IMG/VR virus record: IMGVR_UViG_3300042540_000182
Span: 1 to 29,007 of that record
Source of the DNA: a virus
Length of the DNA stretch: 29,007 nucleotides
Direction: 5' to 3' (one strand)
Both the position numbers and the translations under genes were made by a program. The notes beneath the pieces are model-generated. The model was not told the DNA's origin and searched no databases. It saw only the letters and a list, made by a program, of their open reading frames with translations. This document shows, in pieces, positions 318 to 26,845 of the stretch; within the stretch, counting starts at the first letter, position 1; each line of letters begins with the position of its first letter.

Positions 318-830
318 ATGAAAAAAGTATTTATTTCTTTCTTAATGGCTTTGCCATTCTTGTCTGTAGCGCAACAATGTGTAGTAAAAGACTGTGATGA
401 TATGACCGATAAGTGTGTCTATTATCCTAGACATAACATGATTTTAGCTAACGATAATAAAACAGTAGGCTTTACTGTTGATGCTAGAATTGTAGATAAA
501 GCGGGTCAGTTATCTGTAGCTGATATTATGATTAAAAGTGTAAACATTGGTAACTGCAATGAGAATGATAAGCTTATTCTCATGCTATCTGATAGCACCA
601 AGCTTTCATTAGTAAGCTGGAATAAGTTTAACTGTGAAGGTAATTCATGGTTTAATCTAAAAGAATCAGATGTAAACCGTTTAGCTTCTAATAAGATTAT
701 TAAGGCATACTTCCAAAATGGTAGATCCTATGACTCTTTTACAAAAGAGATAGTAGTAGAAGATCAAGACTATTTTGTGAAGATTATTGCTGACTGTAGG
801 GAGAATAAGTTTACAGTTAAATCTAACTAA
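318..830 (+). CDS. exported hypothetical protein with Sec signal peptide
   Basis: The 170-residue product begins MKKVFISFLMALPFLSVAQQ: two lysines, a hydrophobic core, and an SVA site that fits signal peptidase I cleavage before QQ. There is no lipobox, because the next Cys (21) is not preceded by the L-[AS]-[GA] pattern. The mature part is rich in polar residues, carries cysteines at about 21, 26 and 33 plus three further ones, and contains no other membrane segment, so a secreted or periplasmic, perhaps disulfide-bonded, beta-rich protein is likely. No Shine-Dalgarno precedes the start; the leader is A/T-rich and ends AAACCAAC. The family is not recognised. Roles such as modifying the host envelope or blocking superinfection are possible but unsupported beyond the export signal. 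Confidence 0.8.
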   Translation: MKKVFISFLMALPFLSVAQQCVVKDCDDMTDKCVYYPRHNMILANDNKTVGFTVDARIVDKAGQLSVADIMIKSVNIGNCNENDKLILMLSDSTKLSLVSWNKFNCEGNSWFNLKESDVNRLASNKIIKAYFQNGRSYDSFTKEIVVEDQDYFVKIIADCRENKFTVKSN

Positions 831-1655: not shown

Positions 1656-1941
1656 AGAAGGTGATCAAGTAGTATGTATAGATGATGTCTTTGACCCGAG
1701 GTCAATAGAAATTATACCTAATAGACCTATCAAGGATAATATCTATACTGTCCGTGAGATGAGATATTATGATATGCATGATAAGATGGGAATTACTCTA
1801 GTGGAAATTAAAAATCCAGTTATTGTAAAGGATTTATTTGGTAGGAGACAAGAACCTAGTTTTAATATCATTCGGTTTGCCCCATTAGATCAAGTTCTAG
1901 ACAGTATTAGTATAGAAGAATTAGAAGAAGCAGTAATATGA
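1648..1941 (+). CDS. small conserved phage hypothetical protein, SH3-like start
   Basis: A 97-residue protein starting MIKEGDQVVCIDDVF. The pattern GDxVVCID, then PIKDNIYTVREM, then GITLVEIKNP and FNIIRFAPLD is typical of a small phage family with a predicted SH3-like beta barrel and unknown function. The start has a good Shine-Dalgarno (GAAGGAGAA at 1632-1640, nine bases upstream), and the stop overlaps the next start as ATGA. The acidic C-terminal tail (SIEELEEAV) is probably helical. Confidence 0.8.
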   Translation: MIKEGDQVVCIDDVFDPRSIEIIPNRPIKDNIYTVREMRYYDMHDKMGITLVEIKNPVIVKDLFGRRQEPSFNIIRFAPLDQVLDSISIEELEEAVI

Positions 1942-2798
1942 GTAAAGTAGAATTAGTTACCCGAAAGTCTATGCAGATTAGACCTTCGGGTAGATCTACT
2001 GACTTTATTGCACCCAGTTTTGGGTATGGTTGTTTGTATAACTGTGGCTATTGTTACATGAAAAGACATAGGCCAGATGGTTTAACAGTAGCTAAGAATA
2101 TACATGATGTTCTTACTGCTATTGATCATCACTCTTGGTTTGCCGATGTAGATAAACCTAATCAGACTCATGAGCATTATATAACCTATGATATAGGTTG
2201 TAATGAAGACCTAGCACTTCATCATAAGTATTACGACTTTGATAAGATAGTTAGGTTTTTTAAGACTCATGGAAAAGCATTTGGTTCATTTGCTACTAAG
2301 TATGTAAACCCTAAATTGCTGGACTATGATCCTATCAATTCTATGAGGATACGATTTAGTCTCATGCCCCAGAAATATGCTGATTTATTAGAGCCAGGAA
2401 CTAGCAAGATATTAGATAGAATTATTGCTATTGATCAGTTCTTAGAAGCTGGTTGGGATGTGCACATAAACTTTAGTCCTGTAATTGTAACAGAAGGATG
2501 GGAGCATGAGTATGCAGCATTATTTCAGCTAGTAGATAAGCATGTTGGTATAAAACATAAAGTAAAATCAGAAGTAATCTTCCTTACCCATAATAAAGAT
2601 AAGCATGAGTATAATCTAAAGAATAGAATACTCGGAGAAGAATTATTATGGAGACCAGATATTCAGGAAGACAAAGTATCGCAGTATGGTGGTGAGAATA
2701 TTAGATATAAACACAATCTAAAAGATGATTATATCCACCAGTTTAAAATGCTACACAACTTAATAATTCCTTGGAATACAATTAGATACATTTTTTAG
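1938..2798 (+). CDS. radical SAM protein, spore photoproduct lyase family
   Basis: The 286-residue product carries GCLYNCGYC at residues 31-39, a CX3CX2C motif (Cys32, 36, 39) that in this superfamily binds a [4Fe-4S] cluster and S-adenosylmethionine. Family-specific features follow: IGCNED with Cys88, matching in position the hydrogen-donor Cys of spore photoproduct lyases (56 residues after the first cluster Cys here, about 50 in Bacillus); RIRFSLMP; LEPGTSKILDRI; and INFSPVIVTEGW, similar to the AP-I-x-x-EGW region of SplB. SplB reverses the UV-induced spore photoproduct (5-thyminyl-5,6-dihydrothymine) in DNA. The protein is somewhat shorter than Bacillus SplB (about 340 residues). It overlaps its upstream neighbour by 4 nt. 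Family membership is firm; a DNA-repair role, and the exact lesion, are inferred. Confidence 0.85.
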   Translation: MSKVELVTRKSMQIRPSGRSTDFIAPSFGYGCLYNCGYCYMKRHRPDGLTVAKNIHDVLTAIDHHSWFADVDKPNQTHEHYITYDIGCNEDLALHHKYYDFDKIVRFFKTHGKAFGSFATKYVNPKLLDYDPINSMRIRFSLMPQKYADLLEPGTSKILDRIIAIDQFLEAGWDVHINFSPVIVTEGWEHEYAALFQLVDKHVGIKHKVKSEVIFLTHNKDKHEYNLKNRILGEELLWRPDIQEDKVSQYGGENIRYKHNLKDDYIHQFKMLHNLIIPWNTIRYIF

Positions 2799-6003: not shown

Positions 6004-6993
6004 ATGGCAGAAAAAAATCATGCTTGGAAAGGGCAGAAAGATGGTTTTGTCCAAGCACTAGAATACATGAAAGGAAGGAGAGATGGTAAGATACGTAGTA
6101 TCAAAACCCCTTGGCCTAAATTTAATGATGCATCTACCGATGGTATAGAGTGGAATACTCTAACTGTTATCGCAGGTAGGTCTGGTGCTGGTAAGACTTT
6201 AGTAAAAGACAATATTGTAAATAGCGCATTTGTACTGAATAAAGGTGAGGAATTTAGGATATTAGAATTTCAGTTCGAGATGCTTTCCAGAGTAACAGCA
6301 TTACGTGAATTCTCCAGTGTGGTCAACAGATCATACAAAGATTTATGTAGTGCTAATGGTCAGCTAGATGATGAAACTCTTTTAAAATGCTATGACTATG
6401 CAAAGATTAGAGTAAAGTATCCTATTGACGTAGTAGAAAATCCCATGACTGTTAAAGAGATTGAAGAGGTAATCATTGATTACATGGAAAGTCACATTAA
6501 TACAGAGGGAGAAGTTCCAAGATATGTCAATACGATTATTACTCTTGACCATTCATACCTGCTTAAGGTAAACAATGGGCAGAACAAGCAGGATATGCTT
6601 TATGAATTTGCTGAGACTCTTACAAAACTTAAGAGAAGATATCCTATTGCATTTATTATTCTAAGTCAGCTTAATAGAAACATTGATAATCCAGAGAGAA
6701 ATGAAGATGGTAGGGCTGGTAACTATATCTTATCTTCAGATCTTATGGGTGCCGATGCTTTGCTTCAGCATGCTGACATCGTTGTTGGTCTTAACAGACC
6801 AGGGTATTTCAAAATTCGGTACTACGGTCCTGAAAGATACATTATTGATGATGAAAAAGTTATGGTAATGCACTTCCTGAAATGTAGGAATGGTGATACC
6901 AGAATGAGTTTCTTCAGAGGTAATTTTGAAAGCATGAGTGTAGTAGAAATACCGACACCACCGAAACAAGAAAAACGTTTAAATACAAAATAA
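6004..6993 (+). CDS. DnaB-like replicative DNA helicase (SF4 C-terminal domain)
   Basis: The 329-residue protein carries the RecA-fold helicase core: Walker A GRSGAGKT at residues 58-65, a glutamate-containing segment LEFQFEM (87-93), Walker B ITLDHSYLL (179-187), SQLNR (221-225) as motif H3, a conserved Gly-Ala-Asp region (MGADALLQHAD, 248-258), and CRNGDT (294-299), equivalent to the KNRNGPTG motif carrying the arginine finger. These are the marks of the DnaB C-terminal domain, which unwinds the replication fork as a hexamer. The primase-interacting N-terminal domain of bacterial DnaB (about 150 residues) is absent, as in several phage helicases. It overlaps the next gene as TAATG. Confidence 0.88.
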   Translation: MAEKNHAWKGQKDGFVQALEYMKGRRDGKIRSIKTPWPKFNDASTDGIEWNTLTVIAGRSGAGKTLVKDNIVNSAFVLNKGEEFRILEFQFEMLSRVTALREFSSVVNRSYKDLCSANGQLDDETLLKCYDYAKIRVKYPIDVVENPMTVKEIEEVIIDYMESHINTEGEVPRYVNTIITLDHSYLLKVNNGQNKQDMLYEFAETLTKLKRRYPIAFIILSQLNRNIDNPERNEDGRAGNYILSSDLMGADALLQHADIVVGLNRPGYFKIRYYGPERYIIDDEKVMVMHFLKCRNGDTRMSFFRGNFESMSVVEIPTPPKQEKRLNTK

Positions 6994-7538
6994 TGATTAA
7001 GACTCAAGAAAAGAAGAACCTAGTTGATAAAAAAGCTAGGATGCAAAATCTTGTAGAGTATCACCAGAATACTTTTAAGTTACTTGGTGTAGAAGATCCC
7101 CTGTTTGTACCTACAATGGCGTACAAACCTTATACGAAGACAGAGTTACATGTTAGTTTGTTTCCAAGTCAGTTAAGAAAGGAACAGGATATCTACACAG
7201 AGTTTGTAAATAAAGAGTTTGAACCTGAAACAGAGGAGAGAACTCTATATAAATGGAAATATAATAAATACTGGGAAGAGGAGTATGATTCTGTTGAATT
7301 AGAAAACAGCAGTGATCGTAGATACTTGGTTCCTGTAAGTGAATTAGAAGCAGTTATAATTCCTAAACCAAAGCAAGAAGTTGATTCTGAGATAATTACG
7401 TTTGATACCTTTGATGAAATCATGGATCCAGACGAAGATTGTCCATTAGATAGAATAACTTTGCGAGATTTAGCTGCAATTATGCTGAATAAACCAGTAA
7501 GCAGAAAGAAGTGGCTAAACCAAATAATTAAATCATAA
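6993..7538 (+). CDS. hypothetical protein in the replication operon
   Basis: A 181-residue protein starting MIKTQEKKNLVDKKARMQ: basic helical N terminus, a Tyr/Trp-rich middle (YKWKYNKYWEEEYDSVEL), and an acidic, low-complexity region (EIITFDTFDEIMDPDEDCPLD) before a short C-terminal helix with KKWLNQIIK. It begins and ends in TAATG overlaps with the helicase and the Sak4-like ATPase, so translation is coupled and a role together with these is likely. Candidate roles such as helicase loader or recombination mediator are speculative. Confidence 0.75.
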   Translation: MIKTQEKKNLVDKKARMQNLVEYHQNTFKLLGVEDPLFVPTMAYKPYTKTELHVSLFPSQLRKEQDIYTEFVNKEFEPETEERTLYKWKYNKYWEEEYDSVELENSSDRRYLVPVSELEAVIIPKPKQEVDSEIITFDTFDEIMDPDEDCPLDRITLRDLAAIMLNKPVSRKKWLNQIIKS

Positions 7539-8281
7539 TGGAAATCGTACTGCCAACCAAGAAACAGAAGCCAGATACTGCAAGTCCAGAGAATCTTGTA
7601 ATCTTTAGTAAGCCTAAGGTAGGTAAGACTACCTTGTTTGCTGATCTACCTGATTGTTTGATTCTAGATTTAGAATCTGGTTCCAAGTATGTTGAGGCTT
7701 TAAAGATTGGTGCTGCTAATGTAGATGAGATTAAGGCAATCGGTAAAGCAATTAAGGATGCAGGTTATCCCTATAAGTACGTAGCTGTAGATACAATTAC
7801 TGCTTTAGAAGAAATTTGTATCCCATTTGCTGAGGAACTTTATTCTCAATCTCCAATGGGAAAGAGCTGGTTTACAGATGGTAAGACTAAGTATGGTAGC
7901 ATACTTAACATGCCTAATGGTGCTGGTTACCCTTGGTTACGTGAAGCATTCTCCACTATTATTGCTTATATTAAGAAGTGGGCACCAAGAGTTATTCTTG
8001 CTGGTCACGTAAAGGATGTGCTGTTGGAAAAGAATGGAGCTGAATTCACATCAATGGATTTAGACCTAACAGGTAAACTTAAAAGGATTATCATGCAGCA
8101 CTCTGATGCAATAGGATATTTGTACAGGAAAGGAGATACAAACATTCTTAGTTTCAAGACTAAAGATGATGTATCTTGTGGTGCAAGACCTATCCATTTA
8201 AAGAATAAAGAATTTGAAATTTCAAAAATTAACGAGGACGGTAGCGTAACAGTTGACTGGTCTCAAATCTTCATCGACTAA
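7538..8281 (+). CDS. RecA-fold ATPase, Sak4/AAA_24-like
   Basis: The 247-residue protein has Walker A SKPKVGKTT (24-32), followed by DLPDCLILDLESG, a pattern typical of phage AAA_24/Sak4 proteins, and Walker B YVAVDTIT (81-88). ILAGHVKD (about 150-160) resembles the sensor region, followed by a polar LDLTGKLKRI segment. Sak4 proteins are single-strand annealing/recombination ATPases that act with an SSB, here encoded just downstream. I do not see a separate exonuclease next to it, though a PD-(D/E)XK protein lies at 14999. Confidence is high for the ATPase, moderate for Sak4-type recombination. Confidence 0.8.
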   Translation: MEIVLPTKKQKPDTASPENLVIFSKPKVGKTTLFADLPDCLILDLESGSKYVEALKIGAANVDEIKAIGKAIKDAGYPYKYVAVDTITALEEICIPFAEELYSQSPMGKSWFTDGKTKYGSILNMPNGAGYPWLREAFSTIIAYIKKWAPRVILAGHVKDVLLEKNGAEFTSMDLDLTGKLKRIIMQHSDAIGYLYRKGDTNILSFKTKDDVSCGARPIHLKNKEFEISKINEDGSVTVDWSQIFID

Positions 8282-8291
8282 ATTTAAAACC

Positions 8292-8981
8292 ATGATTAGT
8301 ACAAAGAACATTAAAGAAAACGGTTCATCATCATCAGTAGCAAAGACATTGTCCCCAGGAAATGCCTCTGTAAAAATTTATAACATCCGACTTGAGGCAA
8401 CACCCTATAATAAGGAAGCTTACAATATCATTCTAGATGTTGAAGGTCCTGCATTAGGTGATGACTTTGAAGGATTTTATGTTGACAAAGACAATCCAGA
8501 TTTGGGTCGTCATCAGGGTCAGGTAGGTCGTGTTAAGCTTACAGAATATCCATTTGCTGATGCAACAACTCCGAAAGGAAATGTAATTGTTCGTGATGAA
8601 GAGATTCTTAAAGCAATCAAGAACCTGTGTAAAGAGACTAAGTCACTAGCCTGGTTAGAATCACAAGATGAAAAGCATGATACTGTTGACTCATTGGTTA
8701 ATCAGTTTAATTATGATAAACCATTTGCCAATAAGTTCCTACGTGTATGTATTGCAGGTAAAGAATACCAGAATAAAGCTGGTTATACTAACCACGATTT
8801 GTATTTTCCTAAATGGTCTAAGGATGGCATTGCATATGAAAGTGCTGAGATTGACGAAGTAAAAAGCAAAGTAGTTAAGTTCAATACTGAAGTTCATATT
8901 AAGAAAAGCAAGACCGTAGAGGTTAAAACATTTGGAGAGTCTACAACAAAGAAGTCTCTGGCTGATGATTTCGAGTTGTAA
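8292..8981 (+). CDS. putative single-stranded DNA-binding protein
   Basis: I start at ATG 8292 (MISTKNIKENG) rather than the TTG at 8253, which lies inside the ATPase gene. The 229-residue protein has a Ser-rich N terminus, a beta-rich centre (VKIYNIRLEATPY, YNIILDVEGPALG) and a C-terminal tail ending LADDFEL, an acidic tip plus hydrophobic end reminiscent of SSB partner-binding tails. Its place next to a Sak4-like ATPase and helicase fits. The OB fold itself is inferred, not shown. It is the last gene before the terminator at 9002. Confidence 0.65.
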   Translation: MISTKNIKENGSSSSVAKTLSPGNASVKIYNIRLEATPYNKEAYNIILDVEGPALGDDFEGFYVDKDNPDLGRHQGQVGRVKLTEYPFADATTPKGNVIVRDEEILKAIKNLCKETKSLAWLESQDEKHDTVDSLVNQFNYDKPFANKFLRVCIAGKEYQNKAGYTNHDLYFPKWSKDGIAYESAEIDEVKSKVVKFNTEVHIKKSKTVEVKTFGESTTKKSLADDFEL

Positions 8982-9001
8982 TAGTTAACTTATAAGATAA
9001 C

Positions 9002-9037
9002 AAAGGGGGCAGAATTAACTGTCCCCTTTAATTTTTT
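9002..9037 (+). terminator. rho-independent terminator after the SSB-like gene
   Basis: An 11-bp stem, AAAGGGGGCAG (9002-9012) with CTGTCCCCTTT (9019-9029) containing one G:T pair, has a six-base loop and is followed by TAATTTTTTAT. It closes the unit 4231-8981. The primase gene starts 13 bases after the stem. Confidence 0.88.
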
Positions 9038-9042
9038 ATAGC

Positions 9043-10011
9043 ATGCTTAGTACAAGATCAATAGTGGTATCAATAGATGAGGTTCCATCTACTTGGATAT
9101 ATGAATATTATTGTAAGCTAACCGAAAAGCTTACAGGTCAGAGTGTTAAGATGAAATCTTTGTTTAATCATAAAGATACTAACCCTAGTTTCTTTATCTA
9201 TTACAGAGACGGTAAGTATAAATGGAAAGATTTTTCTACAGGCTTTGGTGGTAGTGATGTAAATCTGGTTTCTGAAATGTATAGTTTAGAATATCCTGAA
9301 ACTGTTCAGTTGATAATGAAAGACTATTCAGTATTCCTAGAGAAAAACAAAAATGGATATACACTTAGTCCAATAGTTGAGGAAAATAAGTATGAGCTAT
9401 CAACCGTAGTAACAAGACATTGGAATAATCTAGACGCAAGTTACTGGCTACAGTATAATATAGGTTCTGAAACATTAGAAAGATTTAATGTAAAGCCTAT
9501 TGAATATTATGCTTTTACTTGCACTGACAAACCAGGTTTTGATGTGCGCAGTAATTATATGTATGGTTATTATAATTCAAATAACCAGATATGTAAAATC
9601 TACAGACCTAAAAGCCAAGACTATAAATTCATAAAGGTCAGGGATTATTTGCAAGGCACAGATCAGCTAGAGTTTAATAAGCCATATCTAGTAATATGCA
9701 GTTCTTTAAAGGATGCTATGTGCATAGATTCTATGGGTTATCCTATAGAAGTAGTTGCACCGGATAGTGAGAATAGTATAATCCGTAAAGAGATAATTGA
9801 TTTATATAAAATAAAATATAAAGCTATTTGTACTTTACTTGATAATGACAAGGTTGGTATAGAAGCAATGGCAAAATACAATGCACTTTATCAGATTCCA
9901 GGTATACATCTCAAGTTAGAAAAGGATTTATCTGACTCAGTTAAAGTTCATGGTATTGAAACTGTGGATAGAATTCTTAGACCGATCCTTAAAAACATTT
10001 TACTAAGATGA
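9043..10011 (+). CDS. DnaG-like primase without zinc-binding cysteines
   Basis: The 322-residue protein keeps the outline of DnaG-type primases. Residues 39-78 (SLFNHKDTNPSF, then WKDFSTGFGGSDVNLV) correspond to the CHC2 zinc domain, but all zinc-ligand cysteines are gone. The Toprim domain (about 214-290) contains LVICSSLKDAM, where the usual Glu is Ser as in many phage relatives, APDSEN, and TLLDNDKVGIEA (264-275), the metal-binding Asp pair. It synthesises RNA primers for the polymerase at 16909. No helicase domain is fused. It overlaps the nuclease gene by 4 nt. Confidence 0.8.
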   Translation: MLSTRSIVVSIDEVPSTWIYEYYCKLTEKLTGQSVKMKSLFNHKDTNPSFFIYYRDGKYKWKDFSTGFGGSDVNLVSEMYSLEYPETVQLIMKDYSVFLEKNKNGYTLSPIVEENKYELSTVVTRHWNNLDASYWLQYNIGSETLERFNVKPIEYYAFTCTDKPGFDVRSNYMYGYYNSNNQICKIYRPKSQDYKFIKVRDYLQGTDQLEFNKPYLVICSSLKDAMCIDSMGYPIEVVAPDSENSIIRKEIIDLYKIKYKAICTLLDNDKVGIEAMAKYNALYQIPGIHLKLEKDLSDSVKVHGIETVDRILRPILKNILLR

Positions 10012-10430
10012 GTTGGTTATATAACGGTGCTGTCTTTACTGAAGACATGATACCTGAAAATGCTTTTGGTTTTATCTATATCATGGGAGCCATAATTGAT
10101 GGTAAATCAGTAAGTTACGTTGGTAAGAAAAACTTTTATGCAGAAGTAAAAACAAGACTTAGTAAGAAGGCAATGCCTACAGACAAACGTAAAAAGACGT
10201 ACAAACGTGTACGGAAATGTACGTATCAAAATTATTTTAGTAGCAATGAAGCACTAAAACAAGCTCATAAAGATGGTGTACATATTAAAAGAGAAATCAT
10301 AAAGATATGTTACACTAAGTCTGAGCTGTCATACCAAGAAGTAAAGTACCAATTTATGTTTGGAGTACTTGAATCTGAATCTTGGTTAAATGGAAATATT
10401 CTCGGTAAATTTTACAAACAAAACAAATGA
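10008..10430 (+). CDS. GIY-YIG-like endonuclease (T4 Seg/endoII-like)
   Basis: The 140-residue protein has GFIYIMG (21-27) and SYVGKKNF (36-43), matching the GFxY...YxGKKxF form of the GIY-YIG motif in phage nucleases. The rest fits this family: TDKRKKTYKRVR (58-69), FSSNEALKQAH, KREIIKIC, YQEVKYQF with a probable catalytic Glu111, and NGNILGKF (128-135). Such enzymes cut host DNA or act as free-standing homing endonucleases. The Tyr of the second motif is preserved; catalytic Arg/Glu assignments are inferred. It sits between the primase and the small genes at 10427, overlapped by 4 nt on each side. Confidence 0.75.
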   Translation: MSWLYNGAVFTEDMIPENAFGFIYIMGAIIDGKSVSYVGKKNFYAEVKTRLSKKAMPTDKRKKTYKRVRKCTYQNYFSSNEALKQAHKDGVHIKREIIKICYTKSELSYQEVKYQFMFGVLESESWLNGNILGKFYKQNK

Positions 10431-11133: not shown

Positions 11134-11572
11134 TCAATTAGAATTAACGTCAGAGATTTGTGATAACATGCTTAAAATGATGCAGTCAAGTGACAAGGAT
11201 AACTTGACAGTTGCTGCAGAGACTATTAGACATATAGATGTAACTGAAAATCTACCTTATCTATTAATCTTATTTAAAGAATCAAGTGCAGAAATTCGTG
11301 CTGCTGTATTTACAGAAACTATGATGGAGGATAAGTTAAGATTGATATGCAAGCATACAGATTTTGATGCCCCTATTACCTATAACGCCATATACAATGA
11401 AATAGTATACCATAATGTTTCAGATAAGGCTATGGAATATTTCTTAGATAAGTTTTCAGTTTCCATAAAAAGAAACATGATGGAATGGGGATTCAGTTTC
11501 CTAACTAATTTTAATCTAAAACTAATACCTATTAAGAATGAATCATCAAGATTCACTAGCAAAGATCAGTAA
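11126..11572 (+). CDS. hypothetical helical protein
   Basis: A 148-residue, mostly helical protein beginning MTNQLELTSEICDNML. It has alternating amphipathic helices with a repeat-like feel (NLPYLLILFKESSAEIRAAVF, about residues 39-60). No catalytic motif or signal is visible. Its end overlaps the zincin/VWA gene by 35 nt in another frame, which suggests that the two are expressed together; an adaptor role for the downstream VWA/MoxR pair is possible but purely positional. Confidence 0.65.
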   Translation: MTNQLELTSEICDNMLKMMQSSDKDNLTVAAETIRHIDVTENLPYLLILFKESSAEIRAAVFTETMMEDKLRLICKHTDFDAPITYNAIYNEIVYHNVSDKAMEYFLDKFSVSIKRNMMEWGFSFLTNFNLKLIPIKNESSRFTSKDQ

Positions 11573-12740
11573 AGAGCTAATGCTGAAAGAACCATTCTAT
11601 GGTTTGTTTCTCATTGGTCTTAATAAGATTTGGTCTGAGAGAATACCTACTGCAGGTGTCTCTAAAAATAACATCAACTATCAACTCGTAATTAATTCTA
11701 ACTTTTGGGAATCTTTATCTGATTCTCATAAGTTGGGATTACTAAAACACGAGTTATTGCATATTGCATTCTTCCATATATGTTCTGAGAATGTTGGTTA
11801 CGATAAAAAACTTTCCAACATTGCAATGGACCTAGAGATTAATCAGTACATTGATGGTATTAACTTACCAGATGGTGGCTGTACAATCCATACAGATCCG
11901 TTTGCACAGTTGAATCTTCCAGTAAAGGTAGGCTGGCGTATATATTATGATCTTATCAAGAATGAATTTGATAATAATCCTGGTAGTGAATCTAGTCAGA
12001 GAATTCAACAGATGATTGATGGTCAAGGTTCTGGAGAATCCCACACTGAAATGGGAGATATGATACCTGATCACGGTACATGGGAAGAGTTTGATAATTT
12101 AAGTGATGCAGAAAAGAAGCTGATTGAAAAGCAAACAGAACACATTCTGTCTGAGATTCAAGATCAGGTAGAAAAGTCAAGAGGTAATATACCAGGAGAA
12201 CTAAAGAATATTCTAGAGAGATTAAATGTAAAAGAGCCACCAAAGTTTGATTGGAAAGCTTATCTTAGAAGATTCACCGGAGGTTCTCAAAGGGTATATA
12301 CCAAAAAGCTTAGACGTAAGTTTAATAAAAGATTTGAGGAAAACCCAGGTCTTAAGATTAAACAACGCCGGCATATTCTGGTTGCTATTGATACTAGTGG
12401 ATCTGTTTCAGAAACAGAATTAAAAGAATTCTTTCATGAGATAGATCACATTAATAAAACTGGTAGCGATATTACAGTAATACAGTGTGACACATCTATA
12501 CGGTATATTGGAGAGTATAAAAGGGGTCAAGAATTAGTAATCCATGGAAGAGGCGGTACTAGATTTGATCCTGTCCTAGAATACTATAATGTAAATACTT
12601 CAAAGTATACGTGTCTAGTCTATCTTACTGATGGATATTGTGATACGGATGTAAATGTAAAAGGTAAAATGCTTTGGGTAATATCTACCCGTGGTAGCAT
12701 AAATAAATCATTAAAAGGACCACAAATTAAATTGAATTAA
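11538..12740 (+). CDS. VWA-like metallopeptidase-type protein (DUF2201 family)
   Basis: A 400-residue two-domain protein. The N-terminal part has LLKHELLHIAFFH: HExxH plus a third His (71-80), a zincin zinc site, followed by MDLEIN (97-102). A low-complexity Gly/Ser/Glu linker (about 145-180) leads to a von Willebrand A domain with a MIDAS metal site: AIDTSGS (283-289), GGTRF (339-343, Thr341) and LTDG (363-366). Proteins with this architecture usually pair with MoxR-type AAA+ ATPases, encoded here one base downstream. In that partnership the ATPase remodels or loads substrates, while VWA binds partners through a divalent metal. Whether the zincin site is an active protease is unknown. Confidence 0.85.
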   Translation: MNHQDSLAKISKELMLKEPFYGLFLIGLNKIWSERIPTAGVSKNNINYQLVINSNFWESLSDSHKLGLLKHELLHIAFFHICSENVGYDKKLSNIAMDLEINQYIDGINLPDGGCTIHTDPFAQLNLPVKVGWRIYYDLIKNEFDNNPGSESSQRIQQMIDGQGSGESHTEMGDMIPDHGTWEEFDNLSDAEKKLIEKQTEHILSEIQDQVEKSRGNIPGELKNILERLNVKEPPKFDWKAYLRRFTGGSQRVYTKKLRRKFNKRFEENPGLKIKQRRHILVAIDTSGSVSETELKEFFHEIDHINKTGSDITVIQCDTSIRYIGEYKRGQELVIHGRGGTRFDPVLEYYNVNTSKYTCLVYLTDGYCDTDVNVKGKMLWVISTRGSINKSLKGPQIKLN

Positions 12741-12741
12741 G

Positions 12742-13911
12742 ATGGCACAAGTAAATTTGAATACTTCAGAACTTAAAGATTTTATTAATCACATTGTATC
12801 TAATAACAGATATCTTCAGCAAAATGGAAAGATTCCAGTAGCTGTTGCTGTAGAGGGTGAGGCAGGTATCGGTAAGACAAGCACTATTCTAGAGATAGGT
12901 AAAGACCTAGGACTACATGTTGTAAAGTTAAATCTTGCACAGATAGAAGAGATTGGTGACTTGACCGGTTTTCCAATGAAAGAATTTGAAATCAAGAAAG
13001 ATGATGTAACTAAATGGGTTCCTGAGAATACTTTGCCTTTATATATCCAGAACAAGTATATTCCAACTGGTGAAAAGAGAATGACCCATGCTGCTCCTGA
13101 ATGGATTCAAGGTAAAGGTGATGGTGGTATTCTTATCCTAGATGACTATACTCGTGCTGACTCTAGATTCCTGCAAGCTTGTATGGATTTGATTGACCGT
13201 CAAGAATATATTTCATGGAAGCTTCCAAAAGACTGGCATATCATCTTGACTACGAATCCTGACAATGGTGATTACAATGTAACATCTATCGACGTTGCAC
13301 AGAAGACTCGTTTCATTACTGCAAATCTTAAGTTTGATATTGATTGCTGGGCAAAATGGGCAGAATCTGCAAACCTAGATACTCGTTGTATCAACTTCCT
13401 ATTGTTACACCCAGAGCTAGTTACTAAGGAAACTAATGCTCGTAGTATTACTACTTTCTTTAACTCTATTAGCAGCTTTGATTCTTTTGAGAATAATCTT
13501 CCAATGATTCAGTTTATTGCTGAAGGTTCTGTAGGTGATACGTTCGGTACGATGTTTACAATGTTTATCAATAATAGACTTGACAAAATGATATCTCCCA
13601 ATCAGATTCTTTTGAATCCAAACTGGGATAATGTAAAGTCAGAACTACATGATACAATTGGTTTGGGTGCATCTTATCGTGCAGATATTGCAAGCGTGAT
13701 GGCAACACGTCTAATTAACTTTACTACTAACTATAGTAACACGCAACAAGTAACAGATAAAATTCTGGAACGCGTGAAACAAGTCTCAATATCTGATGTA
13801 TTTACTAATGATATTAAGTATCATATCATTAAGAACATTATCAGTGGTAATAAAGCAAAGTTTACTAAGCTGATGATGGATCCTGAAATTGTTAAAATGG
13901 CTGTAAAATAA
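12742..13911 (+). CDS. MoxR-like AAA+ ATPase
   Basis: The 389-residue protein has Walker A GEAGIGKTS (39-47), Walker B GGILILDDYTRAD (128-140), a sensor-1-like ILTTNPDNGDY (168-178) and QKTRFI (187-192) with a possible arginine finger. The Walker B is DD rather than the usual DE, as in MoxR-type proteins, where LDE/LDD both occur. It starts one base after the VWA gene, the typical partner. Such pairs act as chaperones or metal-cofactor/assembly machines in bacteria. Substrate unknown; presence in a replication region suggests remodelling of a phage or host complex. Confidence 0.85.
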   Translation: MAQVNLNTSELKDFINHIVSNNRYLQQNGKIPVAVAVEGEAGIGKTSTILEIGKDLGLHVVKLNLAQIEEIGDLTGFPMKEFEIKKDDVTKWVPENTLPLYIQNKYIPTGEKRMTHAAPEWIQGKGDGGILILDDYTRADSRFLQACMDLIDRQEYISWKLPKDWHIILTTNPDNGDYNVTSIDVAQKTRFITANLKFDIDCWAKWAESANLDTRCINFLLLHPELVTKETNARSITTFFNSISSFDSFENNLPMIQFIAEGSVGDTFGTMFTMFINNRLDKMISPNQILLNPNWDNVKSELHDTIGLGASYRADIASVMATRLINFTTNYSNTQQVTDKILERVKQVSISDVFTNDIKYHIIKNIISGNKAKFTKLMMDPEIVKMAVK

Positions 13912-16908: not shown

Positions 16909-18897
16909 ATGAATCATTGGATTATAGACTATGAGACATTAGTAGATTGTACTGTTTTATGTGCTCAGCACTATAAAAATCCTGAAGATTTAAAGGTATT
17001 TGTTGTATCTAGGCTTCGCAATGATATACAGAAGCTGTATCTATTCCTTGTAGATAATGTAATTGATGACCAGTTCCATATCAGTTTTAACGGTATGGGA
17101 TTCGACAATCAAATTACAACATTTATAATGAGTCGTTTTGGTGTTGGTATTTATGATACCATGAACGGGCAAGATATAGCTGCTGAGGTATATGAAGAAG
17201 CACAAAGAATTATCAGTGAGCAAGATTTCAAATCTAGTTGGAAGAAAAATGTAATAAACAGCATTGATCTTTATAAACTAAATCACTGGGATAATCCTGC
17301 AAAGAAGTCTAGCTTAAAGTGGATACAGTATAGCATGGATTGGTATAACATTCAAGAGATGCCTATTCATCATACTACATCTATTACAAAACAAGAACAG
17401 CTAGATACCATTATTCAGTATTGTATTAATGACGTTAAGTCTACCACTAAAATATATCAGCTTAGTACAAGTCAGATAGCTTTACGGAAAGCACTGACAA
17501 AAGAATATGATATTGATATGTTTAGTGCATCTGAACCTAGAATATCTAAGCTTTTATTCATGCACTTCTTAAGTAAGAAGACAGGTATGAGTAAGTGGGA
17601 ACTAGGTCAGCTCCGGACAAGGAGAGAAACAATAGACATAGGTAGCATAATACTGCCCTACATTAAGTTTAAACATCCTGAATTTAAGAGTATACTAGAT
17701 AAGTTTAAATCCATAGTTCTTGATACAAGAAATACAAAAGGTGGATTCAAATATTCTATTACACATAAGGGTGTTAAAACTGACTTTGGTTTGGGTGGTA
17801 TTCATGGTGCAACATCTCCAGGTATTTATGAGGCTAAAGACGGAATGATTATAATGACTAGTGACGTTACTAGTTTCTATCCTAATCTAGCCATCATGAA
17901 TAAATGGTCACCAGCACATTTACCTAAGGAAGAATTTTGTGAGCAGTACCAATGGTTCTTTGAGGAAAGGAAAAAGATACCGAAGAAAGATCCTAGAAAT
18001 TATGTTTATAAGATCATTCTGAATAGTACCTATGGTCTTAGCAATGACGAGAATAGTTTCTTGTATGATCCTGAGTTTACTATGCGCATTACTGTAAATG
18101 GTCAGCTTTGTTTGACTATGTTATATGAGATGCTTAGCACTGGAATCCCTGGGTCAATTCCTATTATGCAGAATACAGATGGTCTTGAGATGATGATACC
18201 AGCACATTATAAAGACAAGTATCTGGAAATCTGTGCAGAATGGGAGAAGCTAACGAAACTAAATCTAGAGCATGATCAGTACAATAAAATGATACTTGCT
18301 GATGTAAACAATTACATTGCTGTACATAAAACTAAATCATGTTCTAAGGAAGAGTGGGAAAACTTGAGGTCGCAAAGTCCACATTATATATTTACCCAAG
18401 ACAAAGATTGCTATTATTATAACGCAACTAAGTGCAAGGGTAGATTTGAATTCTCGGATCTAGCTCTTCACAAGAATAAAAGTTTCCTGATTATCCCTAA
18501 AGCTATTTATTATTACTTCGTTCATGATGTACTACCAGAACATTATTTACGAGACAATAAAAATATATTTGATTATTGTGCAGGTGTAAAGGCTAAGGGT
18601 GAATGGAAATTTGTTGAGACTTGTGTCGTTGGAGTAGAAAGAATAAGTAAAGAGCTACAGAAAATAGTACGATACTATGTTTCAAACAAAGGTTGTAAAA
18701 TAGTAAAACGTAATACTGCAGACGGCAGAGAAATACAAACAGAATCAGGTAGATGGCAGCAGAAAGTATTTAACGAGTATGTAGATCTTGCCTGGTCTGA
18801 TTACGATCTAAATGAAAAGTATTATATAGATCGTATCTATAAAGAGATTAGTAATATTACTAGGTCTCAAAACCAATATCAATTAACACTTTTTTAG
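16909..18897 (+). CDS. family B DNA polymerase with 3'-5' exonuclease
   Basis: The 662-residue polymerase begins with a DEDDy exonuclease: Exo I DYET (7-10), Exo II NGMGFDNQ (61-68), Exo III YCIND (171-175). GLGGIHG (294-300) matches the YxGG region. The palm has motif A SDVTSFYPN (318-326), motif B KIILNSTYG (368-376) and motif C QNTDGLEM (421-428), where the first Asp of the usual DTD is Asn. It copies the phage genome. The C terminus ends QYQLTLF, a textbook bacterial sliding-clamp-binding peptide, as in E. coli Pol II. The gene is short for the family (typically 550-900) but complete. It precedes the gene at 18899 by one base. Confidence 0.92.
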   Translation: MNHWIIDYETLVDCTVLCAQHYKNPEDLKVFVVSRLRNDIQKLYLFLVDNVIDDQFHISFNGMGFDNQITTFIMSRFGVGIYDTMNGQDIAAEVYEEAQRIISEQDFKSSWKKNVINSIDLYKLNHWDNPAKKSSLKWIQYSMDWYNIQEMPIHHTTSITKQEQLDTIIQYCINDVKSTTKIYQLSTSQIALRKALTKEYDIDMFSASEPRISKLLFMHFLSKKTGMSKWELGQLRTRRETIDIGSIILPYIKFKHPEFKSILDKFKSIVLDTRNTKGGFKYSITHKGVKTDFGLGGIHGATSPGIYEAKDGMIIMTSDVTSFYPNLAIMNKWSPAHLPKEEFCEQYQWFFEERKKIPKKDPRNYVYKIILNSTYGLSNDENSFLYDPEFTMRITVNGQLCLTMLYEMLSTGIPGSIPIMQNTDGLEMMIPAHYKDKYLEICAEWEKLTKLNLEHDQYNKMILADVNNYIAVHKTKSCSKEEWENLRSQSPHYIFTQDKDCYYYNATKCKGRFEFSDLALHKNKSFLIIPKAIYYYFVHDVLPEHYLRDNKNIFDYCAGVKAKGEWKFVETCVVGVERISKELQKIVRYYVSNKGCKIVKRNTADGREIQTESGRWQQKVFNEYVDLAWSDYDLNEKYYIDRIYKEISNITRSQNQYQLTLF

Positions 18898-21112: not shown

Positions 21113-24100
21113 TTATCTCCAATTTGATGATTTAACCCAGTTAGTTGTTGCTTGTGCGGGATCTAATGATTTACCTGTAACGCCGAATGATCTAAAGAAA
21201 TAACTTATTGCCTTACTTCCTTCTTCTCCTTCTTGCATCCAAGAGTATGGTCCTTCTCTCTGATCCCAATATGCTTTAGTATCATCTATTCCGAAAAGTC
21301 CATTACCTGCTACAAGAGTTGCAGCAGCACCCATTTTCTTATAGTTATCTAAAGTATTTTTCATTGCTATTGCATCCATCTTAAGCATCTCCAAATAGTT
21401 ATCTGCACCTAGTCCAGGTATAGGTAACCATTGTACTGTTTCATTCTTAAGTTGCATTGTCATAAGGAGTGCATGGTTAGTTAACCATCCCCCTAATTTA
21501 AAGTCTGCCTCATTTTCACTTACCCCAAAGAAAGGTAATGGTCCTGATCTAGCTCTAATCTTTTCAAACTTATCTTCATCATCTTCATCAAATCCAAAGA
21601 TCATTGAGATAGCCATGCTAAATAAAATAAGGTATGCTACATCTGCAGTTGTCTTAAACATTGCTGCTTTTTCAGATGGAGACAAGAAGCTAAAGTATTC
21701 TCCTCTGCTTTGTATTCCTCTGAACAGTGCTCTCATAGCTTCAACATGGAATCCCATTACCGTATCCCCAACAGCGGCATCGTATCTGTATTTAGGATTA
21801 CGTATGCTACCTCTGAACTGATATCTGTTCAAGAACATTCTAATAAACCAGCGCTTAAATGCAATGATAAATCTAAATGCCATAAACTTATCAGCCTCAG
21901 AGTAATCAAATTTAGCAAAGGAACCGTTGAGATTATTGTTGACACCCTGTACCTTATTCTTAAATGCTTTAAAGTTTGCACCACCAATTCCCCATTCAGG
22001 GTCTACACCTTCTTTTAATCTTATTTGATTGTCTACTGTTTCCCACGCATCTATATATGCGATTCTTTTAGTAACTCCATTAATTGTTTGGGTTACATTT
22101 TTTTCATGATTCATCATTGCACCAAATATGGACAATGATGAATTTAATTCTGTCCATTTACGGAAACTAGTCATCCAGGTCAGTCCACCAAGAGCATCTT
22201 TAGTTAATGATCTTGAACCGTGATCTGCAAACTTTTCTTCAAATCGTCCCTGTACAGCGTCAAAGATTTCTACAAGCTGTTCATCGTGTGACTTAGGTCC
22301 AAACTTATTTACATTCAGACTTATCTCCCACATTGTTTTATTAGACCAAGCTACGCCTTTAGCATAGTTAGTCATGTTATAGTACTGGCCACCGGCAGCT
22401 TCTTGCATGCTTTGGATTCTAGCAGAGAAAGAGTTCTTCAATCCACTTGGTATATCCATAGCAAAGTATCCAAAGGCAGATAACTTCATGATGTTATCTA
22501 CTGCCTTATTAATCCAGTGGTTGTCTTTATCTTTTCCAAGAACACCTTTACGTACTACTCCTTCAAATTCCCTCTCTATAAAATTGTCTATTGCTGTTTC
22601 TCTAACTGACTTTTCTTTATCTTTTCCAAGAGTTGTTTTTTCAGCAACCAGATTCCAGGGACTATTGTTCCTCTGCATCTTCTTATGAATATTTTTAAAT
22701 TCATTGATTGCATCAGAAGAACCTCTCATTACCATCTGCAGTGCTCTAGCTACAGGATTCATTTCAATGAGTTTCCTTTGCTTTTCAGATGCAATCATAA
22801 ACTTTAACATACTATATGTTAAGTCTAATGATACATCATCAGCTTCTAGTGCGGACAATCCGGTGATTGGTATTCCAGCATTTTCATCATTATATACTTC
22901 ACCATCCATGATCATCATCTGATCCTTAAAGTTGTAGCCTTCTTCAGCATCATCCGGTGCAGGTTGAAATAATGACTTAACTCTTCTCCACCATCTAGAT
23001 ACTGGATTCTCTAATTTACCTTCAGCGGTAAAGTACTCCATTCTAGATTCGTAACCTTCTTTTCTGTAGCGGGGTATATCAAACCCAAGCTTTGAGTTGT
23101 TTGGACTTCCCTCTTGAAAAGTAAAATGCCATTTAGTTAAAGCAATAATAGCATTGTATAAGTTCTTATCCGTATCTCGGATACTAAAGAACTTTTCATT
23201 TACATATTTCTTATCTTCAATATCAAGTCTAGGTAACCAGTTGCCCTTATTATCCATATTAGCTTTGGTAATATCTCCTTGCTCGATTGCCTCTAGTACT
23301 GATACAGGCTTTGTTATAAACTTATCCTTTACAGTTCTTTCATAATATAAATGGTTAGGCATACCAACTATAGCTTCTTCCTGACCCAAGGAGTTAGTAA
23401 AGCTAAATATTTCAAAGTACTGTATGTTCTTGGGTCTTACTACACTCCATGCCTTAACTCTTTCTAACTTTCTAGTCTTTACACCAAACTTATCGGTAAC
23501 TGTTTTGATAATATGGTTCTTATCAAACCAGTCTTTAAATTCTGGATTGGTACTAACTACAGTATTATAGAAGTCCATATTCAAAACTCTATCTGCAGTA
23601 TCCATTGTAAGATCTTTCATGTCAAAGTTTGACTCTAGAAGATCCATGTCAACAAGGCTCAGATAGTTATTGAACATATCCATGTAATAATCTGTTGGAT
23701 ATGATTGCTGGAGTTCACCAAGTTCTGAGTATAGCTGATACAGTTTAGCTTTATCTGCTTTAGTTAAACCAAACTGTGATTTCTTATCTAGTAATACCTT
23801 TACTTCTTCACGTTCTTCTTTAGTAATAGGTTCCCCTTCAGATAATTTTTCATAGTAATTACTAAGGGTAGCATGCTCAAGTTCTGTTAGACCAGTAAGC
23901 TTAGGTAGATTTTCTTTTGCAAGATTGATTAACTCTTGTGTTTCTTTAATAGCTTCAATATTACGGAGGTCCATTGCTGTACCTTCAGGCTGATTATCCT
24001 CATCTCTATAGGGATTCATCAGCTGTAAAAGCTTTTCGTAATGCTTACTTATATCATAATCAGTCTGTAAATTCTTAGGTAGCTTACTAGTTATTGTTTT

Positions 24101-26845
24101 AATTTCATCAGTAATCCTTTTTTGTTCAGCATAAAAGCTATCCTTAATTACAGTTCTGGTATTTTTTTCAATCCACTTATTTCTAAGTTTCATGAATGGA
24201 ACACCCCATTTCTCATATCCTTGGTCAATAAGTGACTGTTCATATGCAGCAAGAGAATTAGTAAACAGTTCTGGAATTAGAGTATTATCATACAGATCTT
24301 TAGATGCGTTTCTAAATTCTCTAAGTCTTTCTGCAATCTTTACACTTTCCTCATCTTTTAATTGACCAGAAGAAGTGTAGTTAGAATGTAACTGTCTGTA
24401 TTCTCTCCAAAGATTGGCTAGTTCATCTCTAGTATCAAAGTTCTCATTAGTCGTAGAGATACCAATAGATGTAGTAAGATTCTGAATTTTGGATAACAAT
24501 TCATTTCTTGCAGCTTCAGCCTTTGCACCTATGATGTCGCCAGGTCCTTGATTAAAAACACTAAACCTATTGTAGTATGCATCAGTATATGGAGTATGAA
24601 AATACTTTTGCTCATATGCTCTTTTCTCCTGCTTAAGTCTTAGTACTTCATCATTGTTACCTGATGTGTAAGCTACTTCAGTTGCTGCTCTAATCTCCGA
24701 TTCTAATCTAGAAATGTCAGAACGATAATCTTTCCAAGGATTGATAATGGTATTTACATCCTTGGTAACATACTTACCGTCTTTATCAATACTACCCTTC
24801 TTATCTCTAAAGGTTGACCTTCTACCAAATGCTGCAGGGTTTGATTGGTTATATCCTGCTGCCTCAAGTAATGGCTTAACCTCATTCAAGAAAGTATTTC
24901 CTTTCTTTTGTGCAGAGTTAAATACATCTGTGAGGTTATTCTTTACCCATCCCGCAAATCCAAATACAATTGGATCTTGGTTATATACAAAACCTTCAAG
25001 AAAAGAATTAAGAGCATGACTGTCTCCAAGTTTACCAGTCATTAAATAATCTATCTTTTCATCAGTAAGATATGCTCCATCTCTGTAGCTCTTCATTTTT
25101 AGAATCTCATAGTTGTGAGACTCTATAGATGACATTGGCTGACCTTTTTCTTTTTTGTTTTTTAGGTCAAGAAATTCGGAAAGTTCTGGACCTTCAAGAC
25201 CCCAATAGTCTTTTTGTTTCTGAGCTATAATACTTGCAGGGGCATTTCTTTTACGAAGATCCTCCATCATCTGGTCATACTTAGCATCAATTGCAGTTCG
25301 CATTGGTGCTATATGAGACTTTAGAATTTGTGATACACCTTCAGAATATACTTTGTTTGCCGTCTTTTGTGCATTAGATATCTTTCTTCTAATACCACCA
25401 ACTAATGATATAATAGGATTATCAGGTTTAATTACCCCAGACTGCAACTCATCATTGATACCGGTCTCTAATCCATTTAAGAACTCGTCCCATGAATTCA
25501 TCATGTTGTTAAAGTAAAATACTTTAGCTACATTATCCTGGGAATTCATATCCTTCACCAGATTGATCAGTTCAGTATGAACTCTATCTGTCATTACATT
25601 AAGGCGGAGTAAACTATCAAGGAATGCCTTAGTGTGCTGCTTAGCAAATTCAGCATCCTGTTGAAGTCTTGTCATTTCATTTACCAAGTATACATTCTTA
25701 CTTTGGTAAGGTGCCAAGCTTTCGTAAATCTCTCTAAGGTCCGACCTCTGGTACAAATCTTTAAGGATTTGCTCCATTGCCTTATAGTCCTTATTGTTTT
25801 TTATAAGCTGAATGTGACCGGAGATCATACTGAATAACTCATCAGTTGAGCCTTGCAAAGTATTCTGTGATACTTTTTCCATTGACTCAATTAAGTTATC
25901 GTACTCAGTCATGTAGGCTGCTATGTCCTCACGTGTAATTGTGTTTGGATCTATATCAAACTTTTCCAACATTAACATGTCGGCCAATTCACCAAGAGTA
26001 GTATTAGCATCAAGTTTTTCAACTTTTACTTTTCCAAATGCTCTACGTAAGAGTTGTTTAATAGCATATAACAGATTGGAAATGAACTTGTTAAATGCAG
26101 AATCAGATGTATCTGTTGCTGCTTTAGTTAAAGCCATAACCAATACCTCCTCCATTACGATTGGATCATTTGGTGCAGCAGAAGGATAAGCTTTCTTTGA
26201 ATTGTCAAGTAATTCTTGACCTTTCGGTGTAGCCATTACCTGCTTATAAAGACTATCAAATAGTTCAGGATTGGCTGTTGCAATTGCTCTTACTAGAGGA
26301 TGAGCAAATTCATGGAATACAGACTTCTCTGTTGCTAGTTCTGGTAAGATATAAATAGTATCTCCAAAATAAAAAGCAGGTTGTCCAGACCAAACATTTA
26401 CATCTTTAGTAATCTCTTGTGCTTGAGCAGCAGTAACAAATTCATAGGGTACGCCTAAATTGCTACTTAATTTTTCTGCAACAGCTTTTATAATAGCACG
26501 GCCCTTAACATTTGACTGAGATTCAGTGTCAATCTGTAGGCCTTCTCTTATAACCTTATACCAAGGAAATGCATTCTCTATATCAGCAAAGTAATCTTTA
26601 GAACCTACTGGAGCTTCTGTAACCAACTGCCTATCAGGAGAGTTAATGAAGATATTATAATCATCCATTATTTTATTGAACTCATTACTAGTCGGCATAG
26701 TAGGTTCTTCCCCTGGCTTAAGGCTAGAGTTATGAATCATATATGCTCTCAATGCCTGACTTACAGCAGATCTTTCAGGTATACCTACGGATATAGCATG
26801 TTCTACTAATGGTTCAAATTCTGATGGTATCGGACAAGAGTTCAT
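21113..26845 (-). CDS. 1910-residue virion-type protein with N-terminal zincin motif
   Basis: One of the giant late proteins. Residues 178-182 are HEFAH (in KSVFHEFAHPL), and EEVLVMAL at 232-239 gives a candidate third zinc ligand, so an HExxH zincin metalloprotease domain occupies about residues 80-290. The remainder is mostly long helices, with several coiled-coil-like stretches. Near residue 1740 a hydrophobic segment (AYLILFSMAISMIFGF) is followed by an acidic DEDDEDK stretch, and further hydrophobic patches occur near 1440-1450. Similar giant proteins in crAss-like phages are ejected cargo proteins linked to the virion RNA polymerase; a protease inside fits processing of cargo. No DxDGD polymerase motif is visible. 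Starts in TAATG overlap with the previous gene. Confidence 0.8.
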   Translation of the reverse strand: MNSCPIPSEFEPLVEHAISVGIPERSAVSQALRAYMIHNSSLKPGEEPTMPTSNEFNKIMDDYNIFINSPDRQLVTEAPVGSKDYFADIENAFPWYKVIREGLQIDTESQSNVKGRAIIKAVAEKLSSNLGVPYEFVTAAQAQEITKDVNVWSGQPAFYFGDTIYILPELATEKSVFHEFAHPLVRAIATANPELFDSLYKQVMATPKGQELLDNSKKAYPSAAPNDPIVMEEVLVMALTKAATDTSDSAFNKFISNLLYAIKQLLRRAFGKVKVEKLDANTTLGELADMLMLEKFDIDPNTITREDIAAYMTEYDNLIESMEKVSQNTLQGSTDELFSMISGHIQLIKNNKDYKAMEQILKDLYQRSDLREIYESLAPYQSKNVYLVNEMTRLQQDAEFAKQHTKAFLDSLLRLNVMTDRVHTELINLVKDMNSQDNVAKVFYFNNMMNSWDEFLNGLETGINDELQSGVIKPDNPIISLVGGIRRKISNAQKTANKVYSEGVSQILKSHIAPMRTAIDAKYDQMMEDLRKRNAPASIIAQKQKDYWGLEGPELSEFLDLKNKKEKGQPMSSIESHNYEILKMKSYRDGAYLTDEKIDYLMTGKLGDSHALNSFLEGFVYNQDPIVFGFAGWVKNNLTDVFNSAQKKGNTFLNEVKPLLEAAGYNQSNPAAFGRRSTFRDKKGSIDKDGKYVTKDVNTIINPWKDYRSDISRLESEIRAATEVAYTSGNNDEVLRLKQEKRAYEQKYFHTPYTDAYYNRFSVFNQGPGDIIGAKAEAARNELLSKIQNLTTSIGISTTNENFDTRDELANLWREYRQLHSNYTSSGQLKDEESVKIAERLREFRNASKDLYDNTLIPELFTNSLAAYEQSLIDQGYEKWGVPFMKLRNKWIEKNTRTVIKDSFYAEQKRITDEIKTITSKLPKNLQTDYDISKHYEKLLQLMNPYRDEDNQPEGTAMDLRNIEAIKETQELINLAKENLPKLTGLTELEHATLSNYYEKLSEGEPITKEEREEVKVLLDKKSQFGLTKADKAKLYQLYSELGELQQSYPTDYYMDMFNNYLSLVDMDLLESNFDMKDLTMDTADRVLNMDFYNTVVSTNPEFKDWFDKNHIIKTVTDKFGVKTRKLERVKAWSVVRPKNIQYFEIFSFTNSLGQEEAIVGMPNHLYYERTVKDKFITKPVSVLEAIEQGDITKANMDNKGNWLPRLDIEDKKYVNEKFFSIRDTDKNLYNAIIALTKWHFTFQEGSPNNSKLGFDIPRYRKEGYESRMEYFTAEGKLENPVSRWWRRVKSLFQPAPDDAEEGYNFKDQMMIMDGEVYNDENAGIPITGLSALEADDVSLDLTYSMLKFMIASEKQRKLIEMNPVARALQMVMRGSSDAINEFKNIHKKMQRNNSPWNLVAEKTTLGKDKEKSVRETAIDNFIEREFEGVVRKGVLGKDKDNHWINKAVDNIMKLSAFGYFAMDIPSGLKNSFSARIQSMQEAAGGQYYNMTNYAKGVAWSNKTMWEISLNVNKFGPKSHDEQLVEIFDAVQGRFEEKFADHGSRSLTKDALGGLTWMTSFRKWTELNSSLSIFGAMMNHEKNVTQTINGVTKRIAYIDAWETVDNQIRLKEGVDPEWGIGGANFKAFKNKVQGVNNNLNGSFAKFDYSEADKFMAFRFIIAFKRWFIRMFLNRYQFRGSIRNPKYRYDAAVGDTVMGFHVEAMRALFRGIQSRGEYFSFLSPSEKAAMFKTTADVAYLILFSMAISMIFGFDEDDEDKFEKIRARSGPLPFFGVSENEADFKLGGWLTNHALLMTMQLKNETVQWLPIPGLGADNYLEMLKMDAIAMKNTLDNYKKMGAAATLVAGNGLFGIDDTKAYWDQREGPYSWMQEGEEGSKAISYFFRSFGVTGKSLDPAQATTNWVKSSNWR
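21117..21120 (-). promoter_or_regulatory. ribosome-binding site of the small basic gene
   Basis: GGAG on the minus strand, eight bases before the ATG at 21108, within the last codons of the upstream giant gene. It decides the start of the small gene and suggests coupled translation. Confidence 0.5.
22524..22631 (-). repeat. in-frame duplicated 30-residue unit within the giant protein
   Basis: The 18-base sequence TCTTTATCTTTTCCAAGA occurs at 22524-22541 and 22614-22631, exactly 90 bases (30 codons) apart. The encoded units both begin LGKDK and keep a loosely matching A-x-D-N stretch seven residues later (TAIDNFI and KAVDNIM), so this looks like an old tandem duplication. Unit positions are about residues 1405 and 1435. 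Confidence 0.6.

Follow-up and report, generated by a model that had tools for sequence, protein, structure and literature searches.

The window, a 29,007-nt stretch from an uncultivated virus in IMG/VR (IMGVR_UViG_3300042540_000182), contains at positions 1938-2798 on the + strand the spore photoproduct lyase (SPL)-family radical-SAM gene of the phage. An earlier note, made from the letters alone, had proposed a gene at this position, and the ORF proved to be real, with a product of 286 aa. This product is a short form without the approximately 55-residue N-terminal part of the cellular members. The ATG start codon of the SPL gene shares the sequence ATGA with the stop of the preceding gene (1648-1941, + strand), a small gene of unassigned function that occurs in six viral loci, and the next ORF begins one base past the end of the SPL gene. 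Given this overlap and the one-base gap, the SPL gene looks like a member of a transcription unit.

Downstream on the same strand are a uracil-DNA glycosylase (UDG) gene (PF03167; 4231-4935) and a DnaB-like replicative helicase gene (6004-6993) that opens a conserved replication/recombination block; the SPL gene is located 1.4 kb upstream of the former and 3.2 kb upstream of the latter. The block continues with genes for a Sak4-like recombinase, a probable ssDNA-binding protein and a DNA primase (7538-10011, + strand), which are syntenic with the SPL gene in relatives; the second of these products had no family match, and its designation is a guess from position. The order small genes-SPL-UDG-DnaB-Sak4-ssDNA-binding-like-primase was conserved, with local insertions, in many relatives. 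UDG homologues were found in 29 of the first 80 viral loci, many of the remainder being cut contigs. In a different set of loci (L008, L019, L020, L026 and L056), the SPL gene is located near a family-B DNA polymerase gene, which the window phage carries at 16909-18897 (+ strand). The earlier note had placed the SPL gene among accessory genes, apart from the repair and replication block; it lies instead directly upstream of the conserved UDG/replication block.

Several other genes of the window were recorded in passing. A SegE-like GIY-YIG endonuclease gene (10008-10430, + strand) lies inside the replication block, and the region 11538-13911 (+ strand) encodes an AAA ATPase that appeared MoxR-like by eye, preceded by a DUF2201 metallopeptidase/VWA-like protein. 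The ORF at 318-830 (+ strand), present in four viral loci, encodes a protein with a signal-peptide-like start (MKKVFISFLMALPFLSVAQQ). Two giant ORFs of 1910 and 685 aa (21113-26845 and 26845-28902) occupy the strand opposite to the SPL gene; the 1910-aa protein has a HEFAH metallopeptidase-like motif and matched nothing in Pfam or among the deposited phages.

Profile searches related the product of the SPL gene to two SPL families. TIGR03886 (NCBIfam, "spore photoproduct lyase family protein") matched it over model positions 60-346 (E=1.1e-94), positions 1-59 being absent, and the Pfam family SPL, PF20903, matched it with E=2.6e-20 and 73 bits, above the cutoff of 27 bits. However, its TIGR03886 score of 317.5 bits was below the equivalog cutoff of 437.55 bits. 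Part of the shortfall is due to the missing N-terminus and part to divergence, since a shortened cellular fragment of 287 aa (L148) scored 506; we counted the low score against our best explanation because the missing N-terminus accounts for only part of it. The canonical SPL model, TIGR04070, matched the window protein with E=1.6e-19 and only 70 bits against an equivalog cutoff of 400 bits, and we therefore did not file it as a SplB orthologue. By sequence, its only convincing relative of solved structure was the Geobacillus SPL (E=3.5e-12 with a single sequence and 2.6e-19 with a profile). Judged from these matches, the window protein is a member of the SPL family (TIGR03886/PF20903). The earlier note had named closest homologues with a non-DNA substrate as a result that would speak against it; the closest homologues were SPL-family proteins rather than enzymes of that kind.

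The motifs listed in the earlier note, CX3CX2C at C32/C36/C39, C88 in IGCNED 56 residues past C32, RIRFSLMP, LEPGTS and VTEGW, were all found in the window protein. The cluster motif, together with Y38 and Y40, is encoded at 2031-2057 and C88 at 2199-2201, both on the + strand. A profile alignment to the Geobacillus enzyme (GtSPL) matched C32, C36 and C39 with the cluster cysteines, Y38 with Y96, Y40 with Y98 and C88 with C140, the H-donor Cys (C141 in BsSPL). In SPL, C140 (B. subtilis C141) gives hydrogen back to the thymine allylic radical, and the Tyr equivalent to Y40, helped by the Y38 equivalent, regenerates the adenosyl radical (PMC3742179, PMC5368176). The aligned residues thus provide the window protein with the putative complete set of the canonical SPL mechanism, namely a fourth Cys as H donor and a Tyr pair for SAM regeneration.

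C32, C36, Y38, C39, Y40, C88, T120, K121, R137, R139 and S141 showed no variation among 64 intact viral homologues and are the same in GtSPL. Of 151 further viral sequences, 148 had Cys at the C88 position, two (L169 and L170) had Glu and one (L277) had Ser; the Cys was retained in 212 of the 215 viral sequences read across the site, a count in which the two sets share some contigs. L277 is a split-intein phage SPL with the sequence ITYDIGSNED at this site, and its SPL is possibly inactive or altered. The position of GtSPL S142 is occupied by E90 in the aligned window protein, which we counted against our best explanation.

An AlphaFold model of the window protein built from 73 homologues (pLDDT 94.1, pTM 0.91) superseded an earlier model from 17 viral sequences, in which the pLDDT was 50-64 around the cluster. 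A Foldseek search of the PDB with the newer model ranked six SPL entries first, all with E<=4.2e-18 and a TM of 0.84-0.87. The entry after these had a TM of 0.43, and among the PDB matches listed no non-SPL entry exceeded 0.52. The superposition on Geobacillus SPL that the earlier note had advised gave TM 0.87 and an rmsd of 2.3 Å for 4fhf, which contains the bound spore photoproduct. The cluster motif lies in a partial TIM barrel, the arrangement by which the radical SAM superfamily is recognized. Since only SPL structures overlay well, the window protein is an SPL-fold radical-SAM enzyme. A position of C88 far from the lesion pocket, the other result that had been named as adverse, is argued against by the alignment and by the predicted fold match to the lesion-bound SPL. 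No close fold was found among UniProt viral proteins.

As the earlier note had recommended, we searched for homologues in phages. Scans of IMG/VR with the window protein and with a Deinococcus protein revealed 89 and 284 encoded viral relatives, respectively, the two sets overlapping. Among 50,697 deposited phage genomes, there was no match to the window protein at 1e-5 and no convincing SPL copy. The viral relatives that carry the gene number in the hundreds and are known only from environmental DNA. Weak matches to MT835514 and MT835770 (L166 and L164), "unverified" and unannotated fecal scaffolds labelled "Bacteriophage sp.", were rejected as phage evidence. Both have a clostridial-looking SPL gene adjoining an SDR gene, and their phage label is doubtful because the remaining genes look bacterial.

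Intein-chimeric rows were taken out of the first alignment (A1) before the profile work. Because its outgroup branch was very long, the first tree was rebuilt with eight canonical SPL neighbours and GtSPL as the outgroup and with five long-branched rows omitted. The phage SPL copies formed one clade in the rebuilt tree (100/99), inside the branch of the non-spore-formers. The window protein grouped with the TIGR03886 members and outside TIGR04070, the two branches being fully separated (100/100). Several contigs assigned to Bacteroidetes, Flavobacteriales or Kordia bins (L082-L084) and one assigned to a Rickettsiales bin (L085) belong to the phage clade, and of these L082, L083 and L085 also encode homologues of other window genes. 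The host of the window phage is likely a member of the Bacteroidota; because relatives sit in Bacteroidota bins, it is unlikely to form spores, as had been surmised at the outset. No named phage close to the window was identified by megablast of 24 kb or with the 1910-aa protein. The window DNA polymerase matched many phages at only 32-36%, and no taxonomy is therefore claimed for the phage. The dN/dS of the window copy against relatives was 0.12-0.17 (0.06-0.21 over all pairs computed), indicating that the SPL gene is under purifying selection.

A split intein interrupts the SPL gene immediately ahead of C39, the third cluster Cys, in 44 loci of related viruses (for example L063:5293-7136; L061-L068, L071 and L243-L279, with some contigs counted twice). 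At the end of the N-half are a 98-aa intein-N and a stop, and the C-half starts with an intein-C of ~36-40 aa that ends in NYFANGILTHN and is followed by CYMKRH; no contiguous intein version was seen among the 44 loci. The distance from the stop to the C-terminal HN was 663 nt in nearly all of them. In all 44 loci, a zinc-finger/HNH-like ORF lies on the opposite strand between the two halves and overlaps ~266 nt of intein-N; the HNH assignment was made by eye, as the ORF had no Pfam match. Variability at intein codon positions 1/2/3 in 24 distinct sequences was 0.32/0.42/0.26 in the overlap and 0.16/0.09/0.75 outside it (28 nt). The third positions were least variable in the overlap, as expected if the antisense frame were the more constrained one at the protein level. 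Split-intein "fractured genes" with endonucleases were reportedly described in phages by Dassa et al. in 2009. The antisense overlap of intein-N merits separate study; the window SPL copy itself is without an intein.

The cellular members of the family differ at the catalytic position. Among 80 loci from the genome collection, the C88 position was Cys in 56, Glu in 23 (YDIGENSD) and Tyr in one broken Rickettsia copy. The Glu type has the sequence YDIGENSD/ENGD and comprises L133, L135, L139-L141, L143-L153, L155-L161 and P0002, the latter from a Deinococcus gobiensis plasmid. The 15 Glu-type sequences sampled in the tree, from Actinobacteria, Alphaproteobacteria and a single PVC bin, all fell into one clade (100/100). 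Members of this clade keep the cluster cysteines and both Tyr residues, and no substitute Cys was common to all of the Glu-type members. Because such a large cellular clade has Glu for the catalytic Cys, the family name carries little weight by itself and is no guarantee of SPL chemistry; for the phage protein, the presence of C88 is informative. Annotations as "spore photoproduct lyase family" span at least two active-site types, Cys in the phages and Bacteroidota and Glu in Actinobacteria and Alphaproteobacteria.

In eight Bacteroidota loci (L091, L093, L094, L096, L098, L100, L111 and L117), the TIGR03886 gene directly adjoins a canonical, TIGR04070-type SPL gene, which was established by profile for L100 and by an FEASCYTDP-type motif and the tree for the other seven. 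This proximity ties the family to UV-lesion repair. It also suggests that the roles of two SPL-type enzymes in one bacterium are not quite identical and that their substrates differ in part. The splB gene is LexA-regulated in alpha- and beta-proteobacteria (PMC3323433), cellular SPL-family genes occur in operons with ImuB-C (PMC3765255), and an SPL-family gene is UV-induced in Curtobacterium (PMC12029717). On the D. gobiensis plasmid (L165:3800-7559), the SPL-family gene is followed by genes for a DEAD/DEAH helicase and a DUF790 protein, which we take to be a Bax1-type nuclease; the two are possibly an XPB-Bax1-like excision pair.

The phage protein shares with canonical SplB (TIGR04070; Geobacillus 4fhc/4fhf and B. 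subtilis) its predicted fold (TM 0.87), CX3CX2C, the catalytic Cys, both radical-transfer Tyr residues and the TKY, RxRxS and EPGTS motifs. However, the two are only ~20% identical and on separate branches (100/100), the phage protein is without the N-terminal part and has CNED in place of CTSD, and the phage is not in a spore-former. TIGR03886 copies of the non-spore-formers Spirosoma, Pontibacter, Deinococcus and Methylobacterium have the motifs in common with it, belong to the same family over positions 60-346 and, among those listed, are about 42-49% identical to it. They are ~345 aa in length, whereas the phage form is ~286 aa, usually is without a Cys at position 280 and keeps the C88 that is Glu in the actinobacterial/alphaproteobacterial clade. 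A short cellular clade from Lewinella, Cesiribacter, Odyssella and Rickettsiaceae was sister to the phage clade in the first tree (96/89). It shares the short N-terminus and C88, but its cluster motif contains two additional residues, giving CX3CX4C (CRNSYCY; e.g. CAGGCRNSYC); this type was found in L086, L087, L089, L090, L092, L103, L106, L130 and L138 and in the viral contigs L076-L080. Photolyases (CPD, 6-4) directly reverse UV dimers, as SPL does, but are light-driven flavoproteins without homology to SPL.

The phage enzyme is of the SPL family and fold, has the catalytic residues, is under purifying selection and belongs to a viral clade, and its gene has an operon-like position. In our best explanation, it probably carries out the light-independent reversal of a UV thymine lesion, most likely the spore photoproduct or a lesion closely related to it. 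By analogy with characterized SPL, the [4Fe-4S] cluster at C32/C36/C39 would split SAM to yield a 5'-deoxyadenosyl radical, which would abstract the C6 hydrogen of a thymine-thymine photolesion, and the bond joining the two bases would then break. C88 would donate a hydrogen back to the thymine allylic radical, and Y40, aided by Y38, would return the radical so that SAM is regenerated. The enzyme may be made early in infection and reverse, in the dark, UV thymine lesions in the incoming phage genome before or during replication, and perhaps in host DNA as well, while the neighbouring UDG would deal with uracil.

Two other substrates seem improbable. The earlier note had also offered action on a modified base, and radical-SAM enzymes do serve some phage hypermodification pathways; with the SPL gene near replication genes, the enzyme might decorate thymine in phage DNA as an anti-restriction measure. 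However, no hypermodification genes were recognized among the window genes scanned, so that the window gives no support to this proposal; the DNA-damage context of the cellular kin and a conserved H-return Cys that fits reversal rather than addition also make base modification very improbable. The short form without the N-terminal part would be compatible with a radical-SAM protein acting on a non-DNA substrate or with a captured host gene without a selected function, but dN/dS values of 0.06-0.21, the clear gap from SPL to every other radical-SAM structure and the conserved location leave this a marginally smaller chance still.

The lesion itself is less clear-cut. We regard a thymine-type UV photolesion in DNA as very likely the substrate, and the spore photoproduct itself as a somewhat favoured one. 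The enzyme might instead be an SPL-type lyase for a sister photolesion, such as a mixed-pyrimidine or other stereochemical dihydrothymine adduct, with the TIGR03886 branch splitting the work with canonical SPL. The pairing of both genes in several Bacteroidota makes this a serious rival, and the full separation of the two branches, the phage CNED around the catalytic Cys and the Glu of the sister clade also favour it. It nevertheless appears unlikely, as the C/Y/Y residues that transfer the radical in canonical SPL are all present in the phage and Bacteroidota members, and SPL structures, among them the lesion-bound entry, gave the best overlays with the model. The spore photoproduct is a lesion of dry or A-form DNA, which we counted against our best explanation; its identification as the phage lesion is tentative, and its formation in dehydrated capsid DNA is a hypothesis. 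Our literature search found nothing relevant on phage SPL or on this lesion in virus particles, and no biochemical test of a TIGR03886 member.

The enzyme family itself is known; the viral SPL clade is genuine and, as far as our searches show, previously unreported, with no such enzyme found in the deposited isolate phage genomes or the literature searched. A large viral clade with its own dark-acting lyase for thymine photolesions, encoded together with uracil repair and replication functions, could tentatively be taken to mean that a spore-type (dry/A-form) lesion forms in packaged phage DNA and matters enough to be repaired, or else that the TIGR03886 branch repairs a photolesion without a known enzyme. 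Confirmation of our best explanation would place phages alongside spore-formers and desiccation-tolerant bacteria in the use of radical-SAM photolesion reversal, and the formation of the spore photoproduct in densely packed viral DNA would become testable.
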